Below are positions 466 through 12,395 of a DNA stretch of 41,073 nucleotides, piece after piece. The position numbers and the translations under genes are program-made. Source of the stretch: Candidatus Hydrogenedentota bacterium (GTDB lineage: Bacteria > UBA8481 > J006); the NCBI GenBank assembly GCA_003697085.1, contig RFFU01000058.1, forward strand, positions 1 through 41,073, in the 5' to 3' direction. The notes below the pieces were generated by a model that did no database searches, was not told the DNA's origin, and saw only the letters and a program-made list of their open reading frames with translations. Position 1 is the first letter of the stretch. Every line of letters begins with the position of its first letter.

Positions 466-708
466 ATGGGGAGGGAAAGACTTCAGCATCTGGCCGTCAG
501 CGAAACGGGATTCATCTTCGATCCACATAGCGGTCGCTCTTACACCGTGAATTCGACCGGTTATTCGATTCTGCAACATCTCAAGTCGGGTCTCGAGAAG
601 GACGAGATCGTCGAGAAATTGATTGATGAATACGAAGTGAGTCCGGCGGAAGCGGAACGAGACGTCATCGATTTTCTCGAAGCCCTGAAGGCTCTTCACC
701 TCACCTGA
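466..708 (+). CDS. PqqD-family small protein
   Basis: This encodes an 80-residue protein resembling PqqD/RRE-type proteins, which in RiPP pathways bind a precursor peptide and present it to a modifying enzyme. The visible family pattern is an early FIFDPHSGRSYTVNSTG segment followed by two helices with an acidic run (PAEAERDVIDFLEALKAL). I chose ATG 466 because AAGGAG at 451-456 sits nine bases upstream; an in-frame TTG at 433 would add 11 residues but has no such site. The stop overlaps the next gene by one base (TGATG), so it is translationally coupled to the ATP-grasp ligase. There is no radical SAM gene and no obvious precursor peptide nearby, so its substrate is unknown. The family call is by pattern and is fairly secure; the role is inference. 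Confidence 0.75.
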   Translation: MGRERLQHLAVSETGFIFDPHSGRSYTVNSTGYSILQHLKSGLEKDEIVEKLIDEYEVSPAEAERDVIDFLEALKALHLT

Positions 709-1748
709 TGCCTCTTACGGTCGCAGTTTCCGGCATCAATTCGATGGAGAATCCCGGTTCCGGGATCGGAGTCATCCGCAGCCTGCTTGAATCCGGATCG
801 GACTACCACTGCATCGGGCTCGCGTACGACGCGATGGAACCCGGTCTTTACCTCGACGAATTCGTCTCGCACGCGTACCTTCTTCCGTACCCTTCGTCCG
901 ACGCTCAGAAGTACCTCGACCGACTTTTGACGATCTGCCGCGATGCAACGGTGGATGCCTTGATTCCCGTTTTCGATTCCGAACTGCCGCACTACATCTC
1001 TTCGCGGTCACGAATCGAGGAGGAGGGATTGAGGATACTTCTTCCGTCGCGGGATCAGTATGATTCCGTCCGAAAGAGCGCGTTGCCGGAATTGGCGGAG
1101 CAAATCGGGGTTCCTGTCCCGCGCTCCATCGCCGTCACCTCGTACGAAGAACTCTCGACGGCCCTGGAATCGTTGGGATTTCCGGCTGTCGTCAAGGGGG
1201 TCTTCTACGAGGCCTATCCCGTTCATTCCCACCAGGAAGCGCGGGAGTATTTCGACAAGATCGTCGCCAAGTGGGGCTATCCTGTTATTCTTCAGCAATT
1301 CATACGTGGAGATGACTTCAATCTGATCGGATGCTGCGGGAAACACGGGCGTATTCTGGGATTGGTTGCCATCAAGAAACTTCTGACGACTCAGATGGGA
1401 AAGACCTGGTCGGCGGTCACCATCGCCAACGATGCGATTCTCGAGGCCGGGCGGCGTTTCGCTCGGGAACTCGAATGGGAAGGGGGATTCGAACTTGAGT
1501 TTCGAATCACACCGGAAGAAGAGATCTATCTCTTGGAGATCAATCCCCGTTTTCCGGCGTGGATTTATCTCGCAACGGCGGCGGGAATCAATCTTCCCGA
1601 CCGGTACATCAAACATCTCTTTGAGGGAAAGGAGGATTTCCCGGAGGAATACGAAGTCGGGAAGTTGCTGGTACGTTACACGGGCGAGCGGATTCGAAGT
1701 ATCGGCGACTTCGAGCGGATCGTAGTCCACGGGGAAAAGAAACCATGA
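708..1748 (+). CDS. ATP-grasp ligase (carbamoyl-phosphate-synthase-like fold)
   Basis: This 346-residue protein has the ATP-grasp layout: an N-terminal pre-ATP-grasp region with a glycine-rich PGSGIG near residues 16-21, an ATP-binding lysine in FPAVVKG (about K163), and the metal-binding LLEINPRF segment (E277, N279) with FELEF at 261-265. Such enzymes form an acyl phosphate from a carboxylate and ATP and couple it to an amine, thiol or another nucleophile. Length and motifs are complete for a single-domain ligase. It starts one base into the stop of the PqqD-like gene and its own stop overlaps the decarboxylase start (ATGA), so the three are probably made in fixed ratio. A peptide or amino-acid ligase role is likely from the family; the actual substrate cannot be read from sequence. 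Confidence 0.85.
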   Translation: MPLTVAVSGINSMENPGSGIGVIRSLLESGSDYHCIGLAYDAMEPGLYLDEFVSHAYLLPYPSSDAQKYLDRLLTICRDATVDALIPVFDSELPHYISSRSRIEEEGLRILLPSRDQYDSVRKSALPELAEQIGVPVPRSIAVTSYEELSTALESLGFPAVVKGVFYEAYPVHSHQEAREYFDKIVAKWGYPVILQQFIRGDDFNLIGCCGKHGRILGLVAIKKLLTTQMGKTWSAVTIANDAILEAGRRFARELEWEGGFELEFRITPEEEIYLLEINPRFPAWIYLATAAGINLPDRYIKHLFEGKEDFPEEYEVGKLLVRYTGERIRSIGDFERIVVHGEKKP

Positions 1749-3124
1749 GCGAAAAGGGTGAAAAAAAGATTTATGAAAAGCCGATGATACTGCCACAGAA
1801 GATCGGGATGGTGAACAAGTATCAGACCGAAATGGGCCGGAGCACGACCGAGATCGACGGAGTCGCCGTGACGACGTTGCTGGCGGAATACGGTTCGCCG
1901 CTCTTCGTTTTCAGCGAGCGCGCGATCCGTTCGCAGGTGAGCCGGTTCAAGAAGATCTTTCGAGCCTTCTATCCGAACACGCAGTTCGCCTGGTCCTACA
2001 AGACGAACTATCTCGATGCGATTTGCGCTCTGATGCATCACGAAGGTTCGATCGCGGAGGTGGTTTCGTATTTCGAATATGAAAAGGCGCGCCGCCTCGG
2101 CGTTCCCGGCTCGAAGATCATCTTCAACGGCCCCCACAAGCCGCCGGAGGCGCTGGAACGGGCGGTGCGGGAAGAAGCGCTGATCAATGTGGACAATTTC
2201 GATGAGATCTTCGCCCTGGAGGAATTGGCGGCGAAATACAACCGGCCCGTGCGGATCGGGATGCGCCTGAACCTTGACGCCGGCATCTACCCGCAGTGGT
2301 CGCGTTTCGGTTTCAACCTCGAAAGCGGACAAGCGCTCTCCGCCGCGCGCCGGATTCACCAGGGCGGCAAGTTGGAACTCGTCGGACTCCATTGCCATAT
2401 CGGAACCTTCATTCTCGATCCCAACGCCTACGCCCGCCAGTTGAACAAGATGGTCGATTTCGGAGACGCACTGGAGGACGATTACGGCCGGCCGATGGAA
2501 TACTACAACATCGGCGGCGGCCTCCCCTCCCGAAGCCAACTCAAGGGGATCTATCTTGCCCCCGATCACGCCATTCCACCGATCGATGATTACGCGCGCG
2601 CCATCGGCGAGGCGATGCTGGCCCGATGCAAACCCGATCACTCCCCTAAACTCTACCTCGAAAGCGGCCGTGCACTGATCGACGAGGCCGGATACCTCCT
2701 CACCAGCGTCGTCGGCTCCAAACGCCTTCAGGATGGAAAGAAGACTTACATCATCGACGCTGGAGTGAACCTCCTCTACACCTCCCACTGGTACAACATC
2801 GGGGTTAAGCCCGGATCGGCGATCGACGGTCCGGCTGAGGACTCGATCCTTTACGGTCCCCTCTGTATGAACATCGACGTCGTGCGCGATTCGATCCACC
2901 TCCCTCCCCTTCCCGTCGGCTCTCCGCTCGTTCTCCATCCGGTCGGCGCTTACAACGTGACGCAGTGGATGCAGTTCATCGAGTACCGGCCGGCGATCGT
3001 CCTTGTTTCCGAGGACGGAACCGTCGAACTCATCCGCCGCCGGGAAGCGCTCGAAGACGTCACGAGTTGCGAATCCCTTCCGGAACGCCTCCGCGTCTCC
3101 GCCGATCTCTTCGCGAACCTCTGA
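1745..3124 (+). CDS. PLP-dependent decarboxylase, DapDC/ornithine decarboxylase-like (fold III)
   Basis: This 459-residue enzyme resembles LysA-type diaminopimelate decarboxylases. The PLP lysine lies in WSYKTNYL (K86), followed by HCHIGT (216-221), the phosphate-binding GGGLP (257-261), YLESGR (304-309, matching the family EPGR) and GPLCMNID (371-378) with the active-site cysteine C374 and D378. All catalytic elements appear present, so decarboxylation of an amino acid, or of an amino acid held on a carrier, is expected. The N-terminal 30 residues are an extra extension. The gene overlaps the ATP-grasp gene by four bases. A ligase beside a LysA-like decarboxylase recalls pathways in which a conjugated amino acid is decarboxylated, as BtrJ/BtrK do in butirosin synthesis, but that parallel is inference. 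It is unlikely to be housekeeping LysA because no lysine genes are nearby. Confidence 0.85.
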   Translation: MSEKGEKKIYEKPMILPQKIGMVNKYQTEMGRSTTEIDGVAVTTLLAEYGSPLFVFSERAIRSQVSRFKKIFRAFYPNTQFAWSYKTNYLDAICALMHHEGSIAEVVSYFEYEKARRLGVPGSKIIFNGPHKPPEALERAVREEALINVDNFDEIFALEELAAKYNRPVRIGMRLNLDAGIYPQWSRFGFNLESGQALSAARRIHQGGKLELVGLHCHIGTFILDPNAYARQLNKMVDFGDALEDDYGRPMEYYNIGGGLPSRSQLKGIYLAPDHAIPPIDDYARAIGEAMLARCKPDHSPKLYLESGRALIDEAGYLLTSVVGSKRLQDGKKTYIIDAGVNLLYTSHWYNIGVKPGSAIDGPAEDSILYGPLCMNIDVVRDSIHLPPLPVGSPLVLHPVGAYNVTQWMQFIEYRPAIVLVSEDGTVELIRRREALEDVTSCESLPERLRVSADLFANL

Positions 3125-3138
3125 ACCCCCGCTCTCGA

Positions 3139-5265
3139 ATGAAGGGCTTCTCCGCCTTCCCCCTTCCCCGCGGCGTTCCTCTCGAACACATCACCGAGGG
3201 GTTACGGCGCTTCTTCACAATCTACGCCGATATCTTCTTCACGAACAATCTCGCCATCGGAGTCATCATCTTCTGCGTCACCTTCTTTCAACCCAATGTC
3301 GGAACGGCCGGATTCGCCGCCATCGCCTTCGCCTACCTCTTCCGAAGGTTGACGTTCCCCGCCGCCGAATCCTTCGAGCCGTTCTACTATTACAACGCTC
3401 TCCTTGTCGGCCTCTCGATCGGCGCCCTCTTCCGAATCTCTCCTCTGACGTTATTGATGATCGCCGCCGCCGCCGTCTTCACTTTCGCCCTTACCGTCAG
3501 CCTCAACAGCGTCTTTTCACGCTACCTCGGGATACCGATCCTGAGTTTTCCCTTCGCCATCGTCAGTTCCCTCTGCTATCTCTTCGCCATCCGAAGCACC
3601 AATCTCTTCGTGAACAACCTCCTTCCTCACACGTCCTCCACATGGAGCCTCGCTCCCACGTCTCCGGCCGTTACGGGATTCCTCAAAACGCTCGGGGCCA
3701 TCTTCTTCAACGACACGATCTTGGCCGGAGGACTGATTCTTCTGGCCGTTCTGCTCCATTCCCGCATCTTTTTTCTTCTCGCCGCGGCCGGCTACAGCCT
3801 CGGCGCCTTGATCATCGCGCATTTCTACGGCGCCTACACCTCGACCTTCGCGAATCTCAATTACTTCAATTTCATCCTCATCGCCGTGGCGCTCGGAGGC
3901 ATCTTCCTCATCCCCTCTCCACGTTCCTACCTCACCGCGCTCATCGCCGTGGCGGTCTCTTCCATCCTCCTCGGAGCCGTCGAAGTCTTTTGGGCCGGAT
4001 TTTCGATTCCGATCTTCACGCTCCCCTTCAACCTCATCGTCGGCCTCTTCCTTCATTACTTCAACATCACGGGAGGAGCACGCCGGACGATCACATTCCT
4101 CGAGAGCCCCGAGGCGATCCTCGATCACCATATCAACTACGCCGCCCGCTTCCTGCCGCCCCACCCCGCCATCGGCCTTCCTTTCTCCGGCGAATGGACC
4201 CTCTCCCAAGCCTTCGACGGTGAATACACGCACAAAGGCCCTTGGCGTTATGGAGCGGATTTCTTGATCCGCGATTCCTCCGGGCGCGAACATTCCGACA
4301 ACGGAACCACCCTCTCCGATTACTACGCCTTCGGCAAGCCCGTGTTGGCCCCCGTCGCCGGGCGAGTCGTAAAGATCGTTAGTGACGTCGAAGACAACGC
4401 GCCGGGAGAAGCCAACCGCGCCGAGAATTGGGGCAACACCGTCTTGATCTGGGACGAACGAGGTTTCTATGTCAAGGTGGCTCATCTGGCCAAAGGTTCC
4501 GTCTCCGTGACCGAAGGACAGTTCGTCGCTCACGGGCAAAAAATCGGACTCTGCGGGAACTCCGGTTATTCTCCGATGCCACACATTCACGTTCAACTCC
4601 AACTCTCTCCCGAAGCCAATTCCCCGACGATTCCCTTCTGCTTCTCCAATGTCGTGCGGGATGGAATCTCCTTTCACTCCTGGCTCGAACCGCGCCGCGA
4701 CATCGTCCTCGCTTCCCCGATCCCCTCCTCCTCCCTCCGTTCTTCTTTCTCCCCTCTTCTGGGGGAGACCTTTCTATTCGAGCGAACGTGTCGCGGCCGT
4801 TCCACGGTCGGTCGGTTCGAGGTCGTTCTCGCCCCGGACGGCCGCAATCTCCTCACCGACGGCGAGAACAAACTCTTCTTTCATACCGGCCCGCCCCTCT
4901 TTCGTTTCCTCGACTACTCCGGCGACCGACGGTCGATCCTGGCCGACCTCTTCCGCGCCCTCCCCTCGATCCCGCTTATTCAGAACCGTGTCGCGTGGTC
5001 CGACACGCTTCCGATCCGGCCCGTCATCTCCCGGGGAACGGCCGAGGCCGTCTTGCTCGTCCAATCCTTCCACCACGACTTCGCCCGAATTCACGTGCGC
5101 GGCACGGTCGAATCCGACACTCTTCGGCATACGAAACTCTACCGCCGTATCGGACGCCGGAAAAAATTGATCGAGGAATGGACCGTGACACTCGATCGCC
5201 GCAGGCTCCCCTCGACCCTTTACTCTCCGACAAGAGACGTTCTCATCCGGAGGCTCGAACCATGA
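3139..5265 (+). CDS. Urea-transporter-like membrane domain fused to M23 metallopeptidase
   Basis: This 708-residue fusion starts at ATG 3139, 14 bases after the decarboxylase stop; the reading frame is open further upstream but overlaps that gene. Residues about 25-315 are strongly hydrophobic, with around ten membrane spans and urea-transporter-like segments FYYYNALLVGLSIG (82-95) and LPFNLIVG (295-302). Residues about 340-500 form an M23 (LytM-type) peptidase with intact zinc ligands: H365 and D374 in THKGPWRYGAD, and PHIHVQ (H482, H484). About 200 further residues are beta-rich and unassigned. The peptidase should face the periplasm and act on peptidoglycan or a peptide, while the channel passes a small neutral solute such as urea or a related compound. 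Both halves are confidently recognised; how they cooperate is unknown. Confidence 0.85.
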   Translation: MKGFSAFPLPRGVPLEHITEGLRRFFTIYADIFFTNNLAIGVIIFCVTFFQPNVGTAGFAAIAFAYLFRRLTFPAAESFEPFYYYNALLVGLSIGALFRISPLTLLMIAAAAVFTFALTVSLNSVFSRYLGIPILSFPFAIVSSLCYLFAIRSTNLFVNNLLPHTSSTWSLAPTSPAVTGFLKTLGAIFFNDTILAGGLILLAVLLHSRIFFLLAAAGYSLGALIIAHFYGAYTSTFANLNYFNFILIAVALGGIFLIPSPRSYLTALIAVAVSSILLGAVEVFWAGFSIPIFTLPFNLIVGLFLHYFNITGGARRTITFLESPEAILDHHINYAARFLPPHPAIGLPFSGEWTLSQAFDGEYTHKGPWRYGADFLIRDSSGREHSDNGTTLSDYYAFGKPVLAPVAGRVVKIVSDVEDNAPGEANRAENWGNTVLIWDERGFYVKVAHLAKGSVSVTEGQFVAHGQKIGLCGNSGYSPMPHIHVQLQLSPEANSPTIPFCFSNVVRDGISFHSWLEPRRDIVLASPIPSSSLRSSFSPLLGETFLFERTCRGRSTVGRFEVVLAPDGRNLLTDGENKLFFHTGPPLFRFLDYSGDRRSILADLFRALPSIPLIQNRVAWSDTLPIRPVISRGTAEAVLLVQSFHHDFARIHVRGTVESDTLRHTKLYRRIGRRKKLIEEWTVTLDRRRLPSTLYSPTRDVLIRRLEP

Positions 5266-6590
5266 ACCGGCCCCTCTTCTCCCCGCAAAAATTCCTCTTG
5301 CTTCTCGTTCTCTCCTCGGCCGCGCTTCCGATCCTTCCCGGAAAAGGCCGCGCGGATCAGAATCCCCTTTCGCAATCTTCTTCCTACACCGTTCTGCTTC
5401 GCTCGGCTTTCTCCTACTATCGGGAGGGAAACACCGACACGGCGTTGAGTTATTACCGCCGGGCGGCGGCGACGGCCTCCAGTGCCGATGAATATCTCGA
5501 AGCCCGCATCGGAGAACAGAATTGTCTCGTCTCCCTCCGTCGCTATTCCGAATCTCTCTCCCTCGGAAAATCGCTTCTTGAAAAATTTCCTGAGAATTCG
5601 GCCGTTCTCTTCAACAACGCCTTCTCCCTCTTCTCCTTGAAGAATTACTCCGAAGCCGCCGAGTTCTATGAGAAGATCCGATCGATCTCCCCGGAATCCC
5701 TTCCCGCCTTGCAAGGGCTGGCCTGGTGCCGTTATTACCTCGGCGAACGCCGCCAAGCCCGCCGGCTCGTCGCCGAAGGCCTCGAACGGGATCCGCGCAA
5801 CGCATCCCTTCTTCAACTCTCTTCCCTCCTCCTGACCTCTCCGTGGTCCTTTTCGTTGACCGGTTACACTACCTATCTCGACTACCATTCCATCACGAAG
5901 GATCAGGGCTGGACCGGCACCTTCTTCTTGACGGCGACCCACAAGAAACGGCATTCCTTCGAGGCAATCGTCAGCCGCCTCGCGCTCGATTACCTCTCTC
6001 CCACCGAGCCGCCGCTCAAGGAAACATCCTATGGCGCGGGTTACCGCTTTTTCGGCCCCGTCGCCTTCGCCCTCTTGCTCCGCCGTTTCAATACCAACGA
6101 CCCCACGCTCGGTAAGGCCAACATTGCGACCGTCAGCCTCGAAAAAGCCAACTTCTTTCTTCGAACAACACTTTCGGATTATGCCTTCGTCGATGCCGTG
6201 CAACTCGGAATCGGTTACCGTTTCCACCGCGGCCGCTACTCCCTCGTCTCCGAGTTGAGCCACGTCTCGCACGATGCCATAGGTCTCCTCGCCCCTCCGG
6301 ACGACCACTGGTTTCTCGCCCAACGCCACTCCTTGACCTTCGGAAGATGGACTCCCTATCTCAAATATCTCCTCGGCCACGGCTCGATCTACACCGGAGA
6401 AGAAGGCTATGTCCCGTACAACACCCCGGATGAACTACGCGGCATCTATGGCCTCGGTCTCCATTGGTCCGGAGACTTCCTTACATTGGGGTGGGAAACG
6501 ACTTATTCCCGCGGCCGGCACTTCACCACCTCGGACCACCGGCCCTATGATCTCTTCACCCACACTCTCTCCGTCGGTCATCGGTGGTGA
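5262..6590 (+). CDS. Secreted TPR protein with C-terminal YaiO-like outer-membrane beta-barrel
   Basis: This 442-residue protein starts at an ATG overlapping the preceding stop by four bases. It opens with a signal peptide (MNRPLF, then a hydrophobic LLLLVLSSAALPILP stretch, cleavage probably near residue 30). Residues about 45-190 are TPR-like helix pairs (for example FSYYREGNTDTALSYYRRA and NAFSLFSLKNYSEAAEFYEK). The remaining roughly 250 residues alternate polar and hydrophobic residues with many aromatic girdle positions and end in HTLSVGHRW, a terminal aromatic typical of outer-membrane barrels. The architecture matches YaiO-type proteins. In this cluster it would be the outer-membrane partner of the inner-membrane channel/M23 fusion. 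Barrel and TPR assignments are from sequence pattern; its cargo or ligand is not known. Confidence 0.75.
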   Translation: MNRPLFSPQKFLLLLVLSSAALPILPGKGRADQNPLSQSSSYTVLLRSAFSYYREGNTDTALSYYRRAAATASSADEYLEARIGEQNCLVSLRRYSESLSLGKSLLEKFPENSAVLFNNAFSLFSLKNYSEAAEFYEKIRSISPESLPALQGLAWCRYYLGERRQARRLVAEGLERDPRNASLLQLSSLLLTSPWSFSLTGYTTYLDYHSITKDQGWTGTFFLTATHKKRHSFEAIVSRLALDYLSPTEPPLKETSYGAGYRFFGPVAFALLLRRFNTNDPTLGKANIATVSLEKANFFLRTTLSDYAFVDAVQLGIGYRFHRGRYSLVSELSHVSHDAIGLLAPPDDHWFLAQRHSLTFGRWTPYLKYLLGHGSIYTGEEGYVPYNTPDELRGIYGLGLHWSGDFLTLGWETTYSRGRHFTTSDHRPYDLFTHTLSVGHRW

Positions 6591-6616
6591 GAGTCATTTT
6601 GAAAGGAGAAGTATTT

Positions 6617-7246
6617 ATGTCTCGGATTTTCGTTGGTCTTCACGTCGGTTTTTTCCTCTTCGTTTCCGCGGCTCCCGTTCTGGCGAGGGAGGCGGACACG
6701 CAAGTTCGCCAGGCCTACGCCGCTTCCTATCGATACGAAACGGCGGGAAATTACAAGGATGCCTTCCGCGCCCTTTTCCCGGTTTACAAACAGTATCCCT
6801 CCTCCTACACCGTCAACCTTCGGTTCGGGTGGTTGAATTATCTGATGAAAAACCATGCCGACGCCGCAGCCTACTACCAAACGGCGGAAAAGGCTCTCCC
6901 GACCTCGCTCGAACCGAAGCTCGGTCTCGCCGCCGTTTACCTCGCTCAAGAGGAATGGGAAAAGGCCGAGGAGAAATGCAATGAGATTCTCAAGACGGAT
7001 TACTACAACTACTATGGAAATCTCCGGCTGGCACTGGCTCTCCAGGGACAGAAGAAATACGCCCAAGCGGAAAGTGTCGCCCGAAAAATGCTGGCGATTC
7101 TGCCGACCGATGTGACGTTTCTCAACACTTTAGCGGTCAACCTCTATCTCCAGGGAAAATACGAAGAGGCGTATTCTCTCTTCTACAACGTCACAATCCT
7201 GGATCCCGAAAATATCACCGCCAAAGGCTACCTCGGAATCCGCTGA
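6617..7246 (+). CDS. Secreted tetratricopeptide repeat protein
   Basis: This 209-residue protein starts at ATG 6617, eight bases after AAGGAG (6603-6608); an in-frame GTG at 6584 overlaps the preceding gene and has no such site. Residues 1-22 form a signal peptide (hydrophobic GLHVGFFLFVSAAPVLA). The rest is about five TPR units, for example AASYRYETAGNYKDAFRALF, YLAQEEWEKAEEKCNEIL and LYLQGKYEEAYSLFYN, which would give a periplasmic or lipid-free surface scaffold. It is the last gene of the plus-strand cluster, 26 bases after the YaiO-like gene, and shares its TPR style, so it probably binds the barrel or the M23 fusion. It converges with the epimerase across a repeat island. No enzymatic domain is visible. 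Confidence 0.8.
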   Translation: MSRIFVGLHVGFFLFVSAAPVLAREADTQVRQAYAASYRYETAGNYKDAFRALFPVYKQYPSSYTVNLRFGWLNYLMKNHADAAAYYQTAEKALPTSLEPKLGLAAVYLAQEEWEKAEEKCNEILKTDYYNYYGNLRLALALQGQKKYAQAESVARKMLAILPTDVTFLNTLAVNLYLQGKYEEAYSLFYNVTILDPENITAKGYLGIR

Positions 7247-7589
7247 ATCCTCGGTGAAACCACGGAAGACGCGGAACGGCAGGGAAGAATAGAAAACCAC
7301 GGAAGGCGCGGAATGACACGGAAGAAGAAAAGGGGCAAGGGCAAGGGCAGGAGTAACGGACGTAAACGGAGAAGGGAAAAAAGGAAGCAGCGTGGGAGCA
7401 CGGGCATCTTGCCCGCAGATAACCGCCTCTTCCGCAAATTAGAGAACCTGCACCCCATTTCTGCCGGCAAGATGCCGGCGGTCCCAGGAAGAACATACGC
7501 CCCACGTTCGCCGCGTTACGGAACGCTGCCTCGCTCAGAATGAGCCGGATGGGGCAGCGAGACAACGAAAAGAAGAACAGGAACGACAC
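7247..7589. repeat. Repeat island B between two convergent genes
   Basis: No gene is supported here. Two copies of an 18-bp unit, ACCACGGAAGACGCGGAA (7259-7276) and ACCACGGAAGGCGCGGAA (7296-7313), are followed by a purine-rich run with GGGCAA hexamers (7321-7388). Next come a palindrome at 7401-7415 (CGGGCA/TGCCCG) and one at 7463-7479 (GCCGGCA/TGCCGGC with 3-nt loop). Between and around the second palindrome the text repeats that of 83-128 almost exactly. Near 7502-7546 a unit in minus orientation contains TCATTCTGAGCGAGGCAGCG, related to the unit at 4-55. The hairpins could also terminate transcription of the two converging genes. Confidence 0.7.
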
Positions 7590-8567
7590 TCACAAGAGAC
7601 CGCGTTCTGCCACGTCTTCCCTAATCCAATCCCACTGTCTTCGAAGTCCCTCTTTCAACGTGGTCTTCGGAGCAAAGCCGAGATCCTCCCGCGCCCGGCT
7701 CGTATCCGCCAGCGTATGCCGCACATCACCCGGAGCCGTCTCCCGCTTCCGAACCTCAATCTTTCTTTCAGAAACTCTTCGGATTTCCTTGATTAAATCC
7801 GTCATCGTCGTGACGACTCCTCCCCCGATATTGTAAACCCCGCCGGGGCCGCCGGATTCCAGGCACAAAAGGTTCGCTTCGACAACATCGTCGACGAACG
7901 TGAAGTCCCGACTCTGGCTGCCGTCCCCGTATAATTCGACCGCCTCTCCCCTCAACGCCGCCTCGAAAAAGCGCTCGATCGCCATATCCGGGCGTTGTCG
8001 CGGTCCGTAAACCGTGAAGTAGCGAAGCGCGAATGCCGGCATTTCCAATCGGCGCGCATAGGAAAATACCAACCGCTCCGCCGCCAGTTTCGTCACTCCG
8101 TACGGCGAGATGGGATTCGGAACCATATCTTCCGATAAAGGGAGTCGGTTTTGATCACCGTAAACGGAAGAAGAAGAAGCGAAGACGAAACGCTCGATCC
8201 GCCCCCAACGGCCCACCGCTTCCAAAAGCCTTTGGGTCGCAAGGATATTGTCCTCCACATACCGCTGAAAGGATCCGCCCCAGGAAGCCCGTATTCCCGC
8301 CTGCGCCGCCTCGTGGAATACGATGTCCGGAACCGGAAGCCGGGAAAACTCGACTCGGTTCAAATCCTCCTCGAAGAACCGGAACGTCTTCTCCCCAAGC
8401 ACGCTTTCCAGATTGCGCCGCTTTCTCGCCGGATCGTAGTAATCGGTCAGAGCATCCACCCCGATCACTTCGCTTCCTCGATCCAGAAGCGCCCGCGCAA
8501 GGTGCGACCCGATGAACCCCGCAACTCCCGTTACAAGGATCCGCTTACCTGAAAATTCCAGCGCCAC
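7590..8567 (-). CDS. NAD-dependent nucleotide-sugar epimerase/dehydratase (GalE/UDP-glucuronate 4-epimerase-like)
   Basis: This 325-residue extended short-chain dehydrogenase has a complete Rossmann motif (GVAGFIG, residues 14-20), SSSSVYG (131-137) and the catalytic YGVTK (Y156, K160). RYFTVYGPRQRPDMAI and a YGDGSQSRDFTFVDDVV segment are typical of UDP-sugar 4-epimerases and related enzymes, which interconvert or dehydrate nucleotide sugars for lipopolysaccharide, capsule or glycan synthesis. Length is normal. It is a single gene between two repeat islands, with no sugar-pathway neighbours in the window, so the exact substrate cannot be set. UDP-glucose or UDP-glucuronate 4-epimerase is the best guess. 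Confidence 0.88.
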   Translation of the reverse strand: MALEFSGKRILVTGVAGFIGSHLARALLDRGSEVIGVDALTDYYDPARKRRNLESVLGEKTFRFFEEDLNRVEFSRLPVPDIVFHEAAQAGIRASWGGSFQRYVEDNILATQRLLEAVGRWGRIERFVFASSSSVYGDQNRLPLSEDMVPNPISPYGVTKLAAERLVFSYARRLEMPAFALRYFTVYGPRQRPDMAIERFFEAALRGEAVELYGDGSQSRDFTFVDDVVEANLLCLESGGPGGVYNIGGGVVTTMTDLIKEIRRVSERKIEVRKRETAPGDVRHTLADTSRAREDLGFAPKTTLKEGLRRQWDWIREDVAERGLL

Positions 8568-9123
8568 GGCGGGATTATACTACTGAAGAAGAAGACGCCG
8601 CATCTGAAAAAGGATGGTCCCCGGGCACACGAGAACCCTCGCCCCTCGATTTGCGTTGTATCCCGCGCCTGTGTTGTCATCCCGAGTCCCTCTCATTCGC
8701 TCGGGACAGCCTCCGCGAGGAATCCACCACAACCCCCGTGTCATTCCGAAAATCGCCGGAAGGCGATTGAGGAATCCCCTCCACGAGGTATCCCGAGGGA
8801 AGGGCAAGGGCAAAGGCAAGGACAAGAAAAAGGGAATGGGGAAGGGAAACGAAAAAGGGAACGGGAAGCGTGTCCTGGTAGCGCAGGCATCCTGCCTGCA
8901 GCAAGACCCGCAAGGAGCGCCATTCCTGGGATCGCGCCTCCTCCTTACGTTTCGGTCCATGACGAAGACATCTCTCCATGGCATCCGTGAACCGCACGGC
9001 GTGATAACGGGGCATCTTCTCGAGTCTTCTCCGGGCAGCCGGTTTGAAAACAATATCGAACCCAGCCCCATTATCCCATAACACTTCCTCCGATCGACGG
9101 ATCGGAATGCAAAAGACCCCCGG
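8568..9123. repeat. Repeat island C between the epimerase and actA
   Basis: Two further units of the CATTCCGAG...GAGGAATCC family lie at 8671-8730 and 8738-8784. The second has a clean hairpin at 8751-8768 with arms AATCGCC and GGCGATT. A purine tract with GGGCAA/GGGAA repeats runs from 8797 to 8868, and a palindrome with arms GCAGGCA/TGCCTGC lies at 8883-8899. The segment just after it (about 8900-8937, with AAGACCCGCAAGG) matches, in reverse, part of island A near 160-215. A broken toxin gene lies at the right side and is listed separately. Confidence 0.7.
8923..9084 (-). pseudogene. Truncated RelE/HigB-like toxin remnant
   Basis: Reading from GTG 9084, preceded by a GGAGGAA-like site, about 50 residues resemble the start of RelE/ParE-superfamily toxins: FDIVFKPAARRRLEKMP followed by a helix and a basic CLRHGPKRKEEARSQEW. 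These ribosome-dependent RNases are normally around 85-95 residues. Here the homology stops at about 8938, exactly where the dispersed repeat begins (CCCAGGAATGGCGCTCC on this strand). Downstream the frame only reads through repeat sequence. No antitoxin gene is adjacent. I read it as a toxin gene disrupted by, or decayed next to, a repeat insertion. The match is by eye and the remnant is short. Confidence 0.4.
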
Positions 9124-9690
9124 TCACTTATGGCAGGTGGCACACTCCAACGGCGCATTCTTTTTTCGATGACACTGAACGCAGAATCCCATCTCCAACG
9201 AACGCACCTGTTTCACCACCGGCATAGCCTTGATCTCTCCGTGACACGCGGCACAGTCGAGGCCGGCCTTGATGTGCGGTTTGTGCGAGAAGAGAACGTG
9301 ATCCGGAAGATTGTGCACCCGCTCCCACGGAATCGGTTCCTTCCTGTCCCAAAAGGCTCTTACCTTCTTGATCTCCGGTTTCCCCGCGGCTACGGATTTG
9401 TGGCAGGACATACAGGTCTCGATTGCCGGAATCCCCGCCGTGGAGGATTTCTCAAAGAGTTTGTGGCAGGTGCTACACGGAAGGCCGTTGTCGAAAACGT
9501 GAATCTTGTGGCTGAAGTTGATCGGCTGTTCGGGAACCGTCATATACCGATTCCAGTAGGCGTAGAGGGCGCCGACCGTAAGAAAGAGCAAAAGGAAATA
9601 GCCGGCGATCACAACGGGAATCGCCCGCCATATCCGATTGGTCAGTTTCTTTTCGTCCTCTTCCGTCCAGACACTCGTTTCTTCCGTCAT
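9124..9690 (-). CDS. actA: Alternative complex III subunit ActA, pentaheme cytochrome c
   Basis: This 188-residue protein has an N-terminal membrane anchor (residues about 23-45, IPVVIAGYFLLLFLTVGALY) followed by five CXXCH heme sites beginning at C72, C93, C146, C170 and C183. Additional FSHKIH and FSHKPH segments supply histidine ligands of the cytochrome c7 type. The anchor and exactly five hemes match ActA of ACIII, which carries electrons from the iron-sulfur/quinol part towards cytochrome c or the oxidase on the periplasmic side. It overlaps the preceding gene by four bases and is the last gene of the operon. ActA is normally the first gene of ACIII operons, so this position is unusual. 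The call rests on heme count, anchor and operon context. Confidence 0.85.
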   Translation of the reverse strand: MTEETSVWTEEDEKKLTNRIWRAIPVVIAGYFLLLFLTVGALYAYWNRYMTVPEQPINFSHKIHVFDNGLPCSTCHKLFEKSSTAGIPAIETCMSCHKSVAAGKPEIKKVRAFWDRKEPIPWERVHNLPDHVLFSHKPHIKAGLDCAACHGEIKAMPVVKQVRSLEMGFCVQCHRKKNAPLECATCHK

Positions 9691-11009
9691 TTTGCCAACG
9701 TCTCCAATAAGTATTCCGCGACCGCTTTCCGCTCATCCGGTGTCACAGCCGGTTTCGGCATCGGTGGATAGGCGGGATCCTTCTTCACGGGATTCGCGAG
9801 AAACTTCTCGAGTTCCTCCTGCTTTCCCTTGTACTTCGGGATTCTCTCCGCCAGTGGCGGACCGACGAGGCGCGCATCGAATTTGTGGCACGCACTACAG
9901 ACCCTCTGAAACACCTCTTTTCCGTCGATCTTCTTCCCTTCCTCCGCCTTCGCCTCTCGTACCGTCTCCCGCTCCTTCTCCGCCTCTCCCGCCTCGAGGC
10001 GCAGCAGGGACAAGCGATCGACATTTGCGCGCGACTCCGCCAGGGTCTGGTTCGTCACTCCCAATAGAAGCACCAGAAAGACGAGAATGAAACTTGCCAC
10101 GGGTCGTTTCGCGACACACCGTCTTCCCGTGGCGAACGAGTACATCACCAGGGGATGCAGAAGGAGAAGCGTGGCCACCAGAACCGTGAACATCTCCCGC
10201 CGAATCGAACCCGGGGGAAGATTTATGAGATAAAGGAGCAAAATCGCAGGATACGCGAGGTTGAAGACGAAGCCCCACCATCCGAGGACGAACCCCGCGA
10301 ACCGCCGTTCCTCCTCGGAAGCCTTCGCCATCTCTCCCTCGGGCCACGCAAAGTACCCGATCCTCAATGTGACGGCCGCGAAAAGAACGGCGAAGACGAC
10401 CAATTCCTTGAACCGAAAGATGGTGTTCCAGGAAAGGAACGTTTGATGCGGGCTTGTGGTGACGAACGGCCATTTTTCGGGAGTCAAAGCCAGAACGGCC
10501 CCTGCGGCGTAGATATGGTACATTCCGAGGTAAAGCATCAGCGCCGCGATTCCGTACGCAATGTGGCTGCGATACCGCACTCCTCTCAGAGGAACGGTCT
10601 TACAGAAGAGCCGCGCGAGAATGCCCGCAACGGCACAGAAGACGGCCGCCGCGAGGAAGAAGGCGGGAAGCAGCGCCGTTCCTCCGTAATACACTCTGCT
10701 GTAACAGAGCGCGATCGTCATAAGAGGCAGAAGGCCGAAGATGACGGGAAGAGCGATCGTTCCCCCCGCTACTCCCGCAAGCCGCTCCGCGAACCCGGCA
10801 TGATTGTCGTCTCGCTTGAAATGGTCCGAAAGATCGAAGAGAACCGAAAGGAGCAGACTCCCAAATTGCAACCCGGTGCCCGCAATGAAGAGAACTGTCA
10901 TCAGGAAGATAATGAAGCGAAAGAGCATTAAAGTATTCGCCGTGGGAGCCGACGCGATTCCCCCTACGAACGACTCGAAACTCTCTCCCCATCGAACGAG
11001 CAATTCCAT
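9687..11009 (-). CDS. Polytopic membrane protein with C-terminal mono-heme cytochrome c
   Basis: This 440-residue protein has about eight hydrophobic spans in residues 25-315, then a charged linker (about 330-360) and a class I cytochrome c domain with CSACH (C371, C374, H375) and a likely distal methionine in YPPMPKP (M417). The membrane part has several histidines (for example H149, H165, H188, H285) and resembles no family I can name with certainty. In ACIII operons the mono-heme cytochrome ActE is a separate small protein; none is present here, so this gene may supply that function as an anchored carrier to the caa3 oxidase. It lies 13 bases after coxB, preceded by GAGGAAGG, and overlaps actA by four bases. 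The cytochrome domain is certain; the function of the membrane region is unknown. Confidence 0.8.
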   Translation of the reverse strand: MELLVRWGESFESFVGGIASAPTANTLMLFRFIIFLMTVLFIAGTGLQFGSLLLSVLFDLSDHFKRDDNHAGFAERLAGVAGGTIALPVIFGLLPLMTIALCYSRVYYGGTALLPAFFLAAAVFCAVAGILARLFCKTVPLRGVRYRSHIAYGIAALMLYLGMYHIYAAGAVLALTPEKWPFVTTSPHQTFLSWNTIFRFKELVVFAVLFAAVTLRIGYFAWPEGEMAKASEEERRFAGFVLGWWGFVFNLAYPAILLLYLINLPPGSIRREMFTVLVATLLLLHPLVMYSFATGRRCVAKRPVASFILVFLVLLLGVTNQTLAESRANVDRLSLLRLEAGEAEKERETVREAKAEEGKKIDGKEVFQRVCSACHKFDARLVGPPLAERIPKYKGKQEELEKFLANPVKKDPAYPPMPKPAVTPDERKAVAEYLLETLAK

Positions 11010-11022
11010 CTCTATCCCTTCC

Positions 11023-12084
11023 TCACTTCAGACTCTTGATGAACGTATTGATCTTCTCAATCTCCGCGTCCGTCAAATTTTGCGGAGGCATAACGGGTTG
11101 GAATCCCTCCACCACATCGGCCGTCGGCGTTTTCATCGACTTCGTCAGATAGGCGTCATCCACGAGAACTTCGCGTGCCTTTCCGCCGGTCATAACGCGG
11201 ACCTTTTTCCCATAGATGCCCTTGAAGGAAGGACCCAGACGCGGGGAACCATCGACCGAATGACACGCGGCACACCCTTTGACGTTATACAGTTTCTCTC
11301 CCGCGGCCGCCATTTTCCGCTCTTTCTCCTCCGGAGAGAGTTCCTCCGCAACCGGTTCCTCCATCGCCTTCTTCTCCTCCGCCGCGCTCCGCAACCATTC
11401 CTCAAAAGCCTCCCGCGGAAGACTGACCACGTTTGTCATCATCTTGGCGTGACCGTCGCCGCAATATTCCGCGCACATCACCGTGTACGTATCGACCTCG
11501 TCCGCCTTGAACCACATATAGCCTTCCCGGCCCGGCACACAATCCTCCTTCACGCGAAAATGCGGGATGTAGAAGCTGTGAATGACATCCGCGGATGTAA
11601 GCGTCAAACGAACGGGAGTGCCCACGGGCACCTTCAGAACATTCGAATGCACGCCGTTTTCGTATTCAAACTCCCACGACCACATCCGCGCCAGAACCTT
11701 GACCTTCATCGCATTCTTCGGAACGGTCCTCATATTCCGAAAGCCCTCGTACCCCGCCCAAAACATCCCCAGAACAATGACGACCGGAATCACCGTCCAC
11801 CAGAACTCGAGCCACCAGTTTCCCTCGACCTGTACCGGAACCTCGACGCGGTCGTGCCTGTAAACCACGAGACAGTAAACCATAAAGACGACGATGCCGC
11901 CGAGAAGCAAGGCCGCGATCAATACAATCATCCAAAAGGTATGATCGACCTGCGCTCCGAAATCGGAATACCGGTTCACTCCGACAACCATCTCGACCAA
12001 AACTCCCGCCACCGCGAGAAGGATCACGACTCCCAACGCCTTCAACCAGGCCGCCGGATTCCGAGGATGCCCCGCCGCGGCCAT
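11023..12084 (-). CDS. coxB: Cytochrome c oxidase subunit II with fused cytochrome c (caa3 type)
   Basis: This 353-residue subunit carries the CuA site: H169 and CAEYCGDGHAKM (C204, C208, H212, M215), followed by a cytochrome c domain with CAACH (C271-H275) and a distal methionine in QPVMPP (M332). It therefore accepts electrons on its own heme and passes them through CuA to subunit I. Three hydrophobic segments are visible (about 16-34, 50-75, 95-112), one more than usual; the first may be a signal anchor. I start it at ATG 12084, which overlaps the coxD stop by one base (TGATG); the in-frame ATG at 12168 would lie inside coxD. It belongs to the caa3 oxidase encoded by the three preceding genes. 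Confidence 0.93.
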   Translation of the reverse strand: MAAAGHPRNPAAWLKALGVVILLAVAGVLVEMVVGVNRYSDFGAQVDHTFWMIVLIAALLLGGIVVFMVYCLVVYRHDRVEVPVQVEGNWWLEFWWTVIPVVIVLGMFWAGYEGFRNMRTVPKNAMKVKVLARMWSWEFEYENGVHSNVLKVPVGTPVRLTLTSADVIHSFYIPHFRVKEDCVPGREGYMWFKADEVDTYTVMCAEYCGDGHAKMMTNVVSLPREAFEEWLRSAAEEKKAMEEPVAEELSPEEKERKMAAAGEKLYNVKGCAACHSVDGSPRLGPSFKGIYGKKVRVMTGGKAREVLVDDAYLTKSMKTPTADVVEGFQPVMPPQNLTDAEIEKINTFIKSLK

Positions 12085-12395
12085 CAGAACGGCCCCCGTA
12101 CCGTGGAATCGATGAAGGTCAATCCCAGAATGATCCCCAGGGTGATGATCATCACCAGGACCATCCACCGGAAAATGCTCTTGTCGTATCGTAGATGCAT
12201 AAAGTACCAGATCACGACAGCCGCTTTGGTCGAAGCGATCGCAACGGCGCCCGCCGCGTTCCAGTTCCCCAGATGCACTCCGGAGACCGCCACCGTCAGA
12301 CCCGTCAGCCCCATCAAACAGAGCCAGACCAGAATATACGTTCCGTACGGCGAGGCGTGGGGTTTTTCGGCTGTCGTTTCCATTACGTCCTTCAT
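12084..12395 (-). CDS. coxD: Cytochrome c oxidase subunit IV (prokaryotic type)
   Basis: This small membrane protein of 103 residues has three hydrophobic spans, the usual form of the bacterial COX4 subunit that stabilises subunits I-III. It has the typical SPYGTYILVWLCLMGLT start and the YFMHLRYDKSIFRWMVLV middle segment. ATG 12395 is preceded by AAGGAGAGAGGA, partly inside the end of coxC, ten bases after that stop. Its own stop overlaps coxB by one base. Family and role are well supported by length, pattern and position between subunits III and II. Confidence 0.88.
   Translation of the reverse strand: MKDVMETTAEKPHASPYGTYILVWLCLMGLTGLTVAVSGVHLGNWNAAGAVAIASTKAAVVIWYFMHLRYDKSIFRWMVLVMIITLGIILGLTFIDSTVRGPF

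Follow-up and report, generated by a model that had tools for sequence, protein, structure and literature searches.

An operon with a PqqD-type recognition element and no visible precursor gene, in which the element may dock on a leader-like tail of the operon's own decarboxylase

RiPP recognition elements (RREs; RiPP, ribosomally synthesised and post-translationally modified peptide) serve as beacons in the search for RiPP pathways, a use which presupposes that a precursor peptide is encoded nearby or at least exists. Among the closest described systems are the RREs that bind a YxxP motif, i.e. TfuB1, TbiB1 and PbaB1 of lasso peptide pathways and LppB of the linear polyphosphorylated peptides. 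LppB holds its leader by a hydrogen bond from Asp70 to the Tyr, by Asn33, which keeps the kink at the Pro in place, and by Phe74, which packs on that Pro, and Phe83 of PbaB1, the equivalent of LppB Phe74, splits the cleft into two pockets; the lasso leader motif class is [Y/W]xxPx[L/V/I/F/A] (PMC13381572). Here we describe a locus of a Candidatus Hydrogenedentota bacterium (assembly GCA_003697085.1, contig RFFU01000058.1, positions 1 to 41,073, hereafter the window), in which six co-directional plus-strand open reading frames (ORFs) at 466-7246 form an operon encoding a PqqD-family protein, an ATP-grasp ligase, a decarboxylase, a urea-transporter-fold (UT) protein fused to an M23 domain, and two secreted TPR proteins. 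As in the described RREs, the PF05402 fold is combined with the gripping Asn, Asp and Phe and with a YxxP-type motif nearby; unlike them, the motif lies on an enzyme and not on a precursor, in a cluster with neither a B2 protease nor a lasso cyclase. We consider it fairly likely that the RRE docks on a leader-like tail (Y-x-x-P-x-I) of the operon's own decarboxylase, instead of on a separate precursor, and that the genes constitute an undescribed biosynthetic and envelope operon. The computed basis of this proposal is that the gene set and the tail motif are conserved, that paralogues lack the motif and that the RRE retains the residues which grip a leader.

The PqqD-family protein (466..708, + strand, 80 aa) is a discrete RRE that scores 59.8 bits against PF05402 (gathering threshold 23.4), and its best PDB matches are the lasso RREs TfuB1, TbiB1 and PbaB1. 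Through an ungapped alignment to PbaB1, N33, D70 and F74 of LppB map to N29, D66 and F70 of the window protein. Related loci (L numbers, in genomes with G numbers) were gathered with two queries, the UT-M23 protein and the decarboxylase family, and among their 22 PqqDs both N29 and D66 are kept in every case and F70 in 20. The original prediction had called this protein peptide-carrier-like; it is indeed a peptide-recognition protein, but a carrier of the LysW or acyl carrier protein kind was rejected, as it presents no attachment residue and its C-terminus is not conserved as that of a carrier would be, so it is better read as a recognition or docking domain. The NCBIfam lasso model gives 50.4 for the window protein, under its cut-off of 70. 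The model for the PqqD of the HPr-rel-A system (TIGR04353, cut-off 35) is passed by the window protein (37.2) and by those of L033 and L038, with L034, L040, L082 and L089 below it or absent; the HPr-rel-A system was ruled out because its partner, HprK-related kinase A, is absent (0/7 genomes above the TIGR04352 cut-off).

In four genomes (G011, G080, G141 and G159) the cluster PqqD is the sole PF05402 protein, and the lasso B2 protease (PF13471) was not found in these four or in G131; the four genomes thus hold an RRE without any obvious other client. The window's own genome (G000) has a PF13471 protein on another contig, outside the operon. It also supplies an internal positive control, namely a second RRE (contig C62; locus L116, G000:C62:62000-76000) whose neighbours are a radical SAM protein and a precursor-like ORF of 75 aa that bears YNKPLV, all three on the minus strand at ~5059-9099 of that locus. 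The plus strand nearby encodes a lasso B2-like protein and has a 321-aa ORF whose HprK-like match is weak, and L116 is possibly an undescribed RiPP cluster.

The decarboxylase (1745..3124, + strand, 459 aa) is a pyridoxal 5'-phosphate (PLP)-dependent enzyme of the alanine-racemase fold whose residues 1-30 (1745..1834, + strand) form the leader-like tail. The tail is predicted to be disordered: the mean AlphaFold2 pLDDT (predicted local distance difference test) is 40-50 in residues 1-30 and rises to 86-95 immediately beyond them, which would fit a linear docking motif. Within it stands the candidate RRE recognition motif, Y10-E-K-P13-M-I15 (1772..1789, + strand), an element that is new with respect to the original prediction. 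The pattern [YW]xxPx[LVIFA] occurs in the N-terminal extension of the decarboxylase in 22/22 loci, and an alignment of 18 of these enzymes, 40-58% identical to that of the window, has Tyr10 and Pro13 invariant and I, L or V at position 15. The exceptions across the 22 loci, Trp for Tyr in L106 and Phe at position 15 in L107, are both covered by the lasso motif class (PMC13381572). As a background, scanning the first 45 residues of other neighbouring ORFs yields the pattern in 14 of 330 (4.2%). FigC and diaminopimelate decarboxylase (DAPDC) structures have clearly fewer residues before the region they share with the window enzyme, and for the housekeeping (LysA) and other decarboxylase paralogues of the same genomes the alignment starts no earlier than model position 30. 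The nearest paralogue outside the family (L114, G328:C10; 264 bits) carries an unrelated N-terminal extension with no YxxP; this paralogue adjoins another ATP-grasp-like gene.

It had been remarked from the window alone that no precursor gene is visible, and this holds more widely: no conserved small ORF with the motif stands within 3 kb of 18 loci, no genome-wide search having been made for an unlinked one. A hidden precursor near the operon was considered and rejected, the motif matches being scattered, non-conserved shadow ORFs only. An ordinary RiPP pathway whose precursor lies elsewhere in the genome, with the resemblance of the tail coincidental or the recruitment of the RRE secondary, would agree with the usual service of PqqD-family proteins to precursors, which can be unlinked; against this stand the lack of a conserved precursor in the regions covered and the persistence of the tail motif in every decarboxylase at the identities given above, and we regard it as quite improbable. 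Docking on the tail is proposed because the motif is universal among the loci, the RRE keeps its grip residues, the tail is disordered and absent from paralogues, and no conserved standalone precursor is found nearby; a motif on the decarboxylase tail would, in turn, explain why the precursor gene is not seen.

Beyond the motif the tail conserves G21 (17/18), N24 (16/18) and K25 (15/18), commonly with F or Y at 26, and its other residues are variable. This conservation past the docking motif speaks for the main rival explanation, unlikely in our estimate, in which modification takes place on the tail and the decarboxylase, as in borosins, has its precursor fused to it: PqqD would present G-x-x-N-K-F-G to the ATP-grasp enzyme and the loaded amino acid would then be decarboxylated, the tail serving as a built-in carrier. 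A precedent exists in butirosin biosynthesis, where BtrK decarboxylates a BtrI-bound amino acid (PMC7857480). BtrI, BtrJ and BtrK match our cluster in combining a small helper protein, an ATP-grasp enzyme and a LysA-fold decarboxylase, which in Btr act in sequence; they differ in that BtrI is an acyl carrier protein, whereas the PqqD of our cluster is an RRE in which no attachment site is conserved. However, the N24/K25 segment is missing in L089 (SPYEG), where YEKPTI is kept and NKFG lost, and is changed in L033 (REKK) and L087 (NVFG), while Y/W and P are kept throughout, and the cluster encodes no protease or leader-cleavage enzyme. Since N24-K25-F/Y26 can be lost or altered with YxxP retained, plain docking is the better reading.

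The genes themselves are coupled as the original prediction described, by start-stop overlaps or near-overlaps: the PqqD and ATP-grasp genes share 1 nt (TGATG), the ATP-grasp and decarboxylase genes 4 nt (ATGA), a 14-nt gap precedes the UT-M23 gene, which overlaps the first TPR gene by 4 nt (ATGA), and 26 nt separate the two TPR genes. The triad of PqqD, ATP-grasp and decarboxylase genes stands side by side and in one constant order in 22/22 loci, from at least 22 genomes of several phyla, including metagenome-assembled genomes (MAGs) of Thermodesulfobacteriaceae, Melioribacteraceae and Ignavibacteriaceae, with start-stop overlaps within it in most loci. The association is far above chance, although the loci share a common ancestry and 22/22 does not stand for 22 independent events. 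The UT protein usually lies directly 3' of the triad, or on a separate contig of the same genome (G008, G105 and G298), and is present in 14/14 genomes that have the decarboxylase family. About 20 genomes show a UT-M23 match, and those without a full decarboxylase are G001 and G255, which are incomplete and have the UT gene at a contig end, and G096, in which the locus contains a masked stretch with a decarboxylase fragment alongside. The four core proteins diverge in step, their pairwise distances giving Spearman correlations of 0.67-0.77, in line with joint inheritance. The idea of a single functional unit is borne out by the triad, by the UT protein in the same genomes and by the envelope partners; the expectation that all six genes stay together is not, as TPR and barrel genes follow 3' in about half to two thirds of loci.

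Some loci vary on this plan. L089 (G131, 4967-9935) is a divergent cluster with two tandem ATP-grasp genes and a UT protein without M23. L038 (G011), a Desulfurobacterium thermolithotrophum-like locus, holds a complete copy of the operon, so a cultured host probably has it whole. Just upstream of PqqD, small secreted proteins of ~135 aa with no Pfam match are encoded in L084 (4943-5347), L085 (4085-4486) and L087 (~5455-5862), clusters in which no TPR or barrel gene was found, and a DUF4405 cytochrome-b-like membrane protein is encoded directly upstream of PqqD in L033 (6556-7359, a Thermodesulfobacteriaceae MAG) and in L038 (13181-14008).

Concerning the enzymes, the decarboxylase matches PF02784/PF00278 (Orn/DAP/Arg decarboxylase) and belongs to a discrete family: 14/290 genomes have a member at E <= 5.4e-189, and beyond these no homologue is better than 1e-78. 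Its closest solved relative, by sequence and by fold, is the N-citrylornithine decarboxylase FigC/FslC (7kh2), whose clade includes SbnH, AcsE, BtrK and MccE, and with which it shares the PLP Lys, Glu, Arg, the catalytic Cys and a neighbouring Met. The catalytic set K86 (PLP Lys), E306, R309 and C374 (catalytic Cys) is complete in 18/18 sequences. The substrate pocket is another matter: the substrate Arg of the DAPDC specificity helix is replaced by Thr/Ser346, the acidic residue of ornithine decarboxylase is absent, the citrate-binding His357 and Arg387 of FigC become Ile/Leu377 and an invariant Gln407, and Trp349 and Met375 are invariant beside Gln407. These residues exclude recognition of diaminopimelate, ornithine or citrylornithine, and a substrate whose distal group is uncharged, perhaps an amide, may fit. 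A rhizoferrin-type siderophore was rejected, since the citrate residues are absent and, unlike in FigC/FslC systems, the cluster has no NIS (NRPS-independent siderophore) synthetase; the extra leader-like tail of 20-25 residues is a further difference from that clade. Against NF041039 (FslC/FigC) the window enzyme scores 223.4 bits, under the cut-off of 500. The description as LysA-like stands as far as kinship within the alanine-racemase fold goes but not for LysA function: TIGR01048 gives 222.6 bits, under the cut-off of 297.9, the pocket differs, and the genome has a separate lysA (523.9 bits), so a housekeeping lysA identity was discarded. Pairwise scores and folds would favour a placement near the conjugate-decarboxylating clade 2; for the non-DAPDC members of this FigC clade a role in specialised metabolism has been proposed (PMC7857480). 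The ATP-grasp ligase (708..1748, + strand, 346 aa) is PRK12767/PylC-like by profile matches, matches PF15632 and has 2pn1 as closest PDB entry; it is 38-45% identical to its cluster relatives, with an invariant ExNPRFPAW.

The fourth gene (3139..5265, + strand) encodes an inner-membrane UT-fold domain (~residues 29-305; PF03253, 165.9 bits), a periplasmic M23/LytM-like domain (~345-490; PF01551) and a C-terminal beta-rich domain, an order reproduced by the AlphaFold2 model (mean pLDDT 80.8), for which Foldseek returns dvUT (3k3g, E 1.6e-13) and, for the M23 part, ShyA/lysostaphin. The dvUT pore presumably works through polar Glu187, Gln24 and Thr294 and hydrophobic F27, L84, F243 and L247. The cluster domains resemble dvUT in the UT fold and in the pore phenylalanines and leucines, which are mostly kept, and depart from it in the loss of Glu187 (23/23) and, for the most part, of Gln24, in a variable Thr294, and in the fusion to M23 and beta-rich domains. 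With the urea-selective Glu and the polar pore ladder lost, urea is an unlikely cargo; the window protein also scores 87.5 bits against TIGR03441 (urea transporter), under the cut-off of 274.6. Of the urea-channel-M23 fusion originally predicted, the fold and the M23 domain are thus retained and the urea function is not. The M23 residues D374, H449, H482 and H484 are invariant. The domain at first seemed degenerate, the His of HxxxD appearing lost; yet an invariant His, H365, lies 9 (not 4) residues upstream of the Asp, so that the domain may have an active site with a longer loop and may be active.

These pocket and pore residues also bear on a chance grouping of housekeeping functions (lysine or polyamine synthesis, urea uptake, wall hydrolysis), which every domain's housekeeping relatives might suggest. 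The residues are unlike those of housekeeping proteins, gene order is conserved across phyla, lysA is separate and UT-M23 is tied to the triad, so that this explanation is largely refuted and very improbable.

The fifth gene (5262..6590, + strand) encodes a secreted protein with Pfam TPR matches and a putative C-terminal outer-membrane beta-barrel ending in Trp. Its C-terminal part resembles ~290-aa proteins at the equivalent place in related loci, with barrel-like counterparts in L033, L038, L040 and L076, and most of these ~290-aa proteins have an aromatic final residue, as in outer-membrane barrels. A YaiO-like assignment failed, since no NCBIfam YaiO model matched at E up to 0.1. The last gene (6617..7246, + strand) encodes a secreted TPR protein (Pfam) of 209 aa, 35-54% identical to the adjacent TPR proteins of L033, L038, L039 and L040.

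In the mechanism we propose, the RRE docked on the tail would bring the ATP-grasp ligase and the decarboxylase together in a complex; the ligase would conjugate an amino acid with a second group, and the decarboxylase, which is related to enzymes acting on conjugated amino acids (FigC, BtrK), would remove the alpha-carboxylate to give an amine. More speculatively, this amine, or something carrying it, might cross the inner membrane via the modified UT-fold channel, with periplasmic and outer-membrane roles for the fused M23 domain and the TPR and barrel proteins. Several points weigh against the proposal. Docking is deduced from motif and pocket conservation among operons of common ancestry; the conserved G21 and N24-K25-F/Y26 are left unexplained by RRE docking alone; the ATP-grasp enzyme would have to bind the RRE and its product would have to be the decarboxylase substrate, and transport through the UT domain is conjecture. 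Taken more broadly, as a pathway that uses an RRE but no precursor peptide to make an amine which is exported and acts on the envelope, either with the tail as scaffold for ligase and decarboxylase or with the tail itself loaded as a built-in carrier, the case seems to us somewhat better than even. In the open-access literature we found no description of the gene set or of UT-M23 fusions.

Around the operon, a dispersed intergenic repeat (CTGCCGGCAAGATGCCGGCGGTCCCAGG-like) occurs on both sides and in both orientations (73-128, 152-179, 169-212, 7432-7488 and 8892-8935). Downstream, on the minus strand and convergent with the operon, lies a respiratory cluster (9124-12168) with a multihaem cytochrome (QrcA-like, under cut-off), a membrane protein ending in a cytochrome c domain and a CoxB that likewise has cytochrome c at its C-terminus.

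If the docking proposal is true, RREs can also serve to dock one protein on another, which would explain some of the 'orphan' PqqD genes. The system also exposes a discrete decarboxylase family and a urea-channel fold that is altered and linked to a wall-hydrolase domain, and points to a product, apparently not yet described, of deep-branching bacteria that are mostly uncultured; a probable cultured host (L038) would make the system testable.

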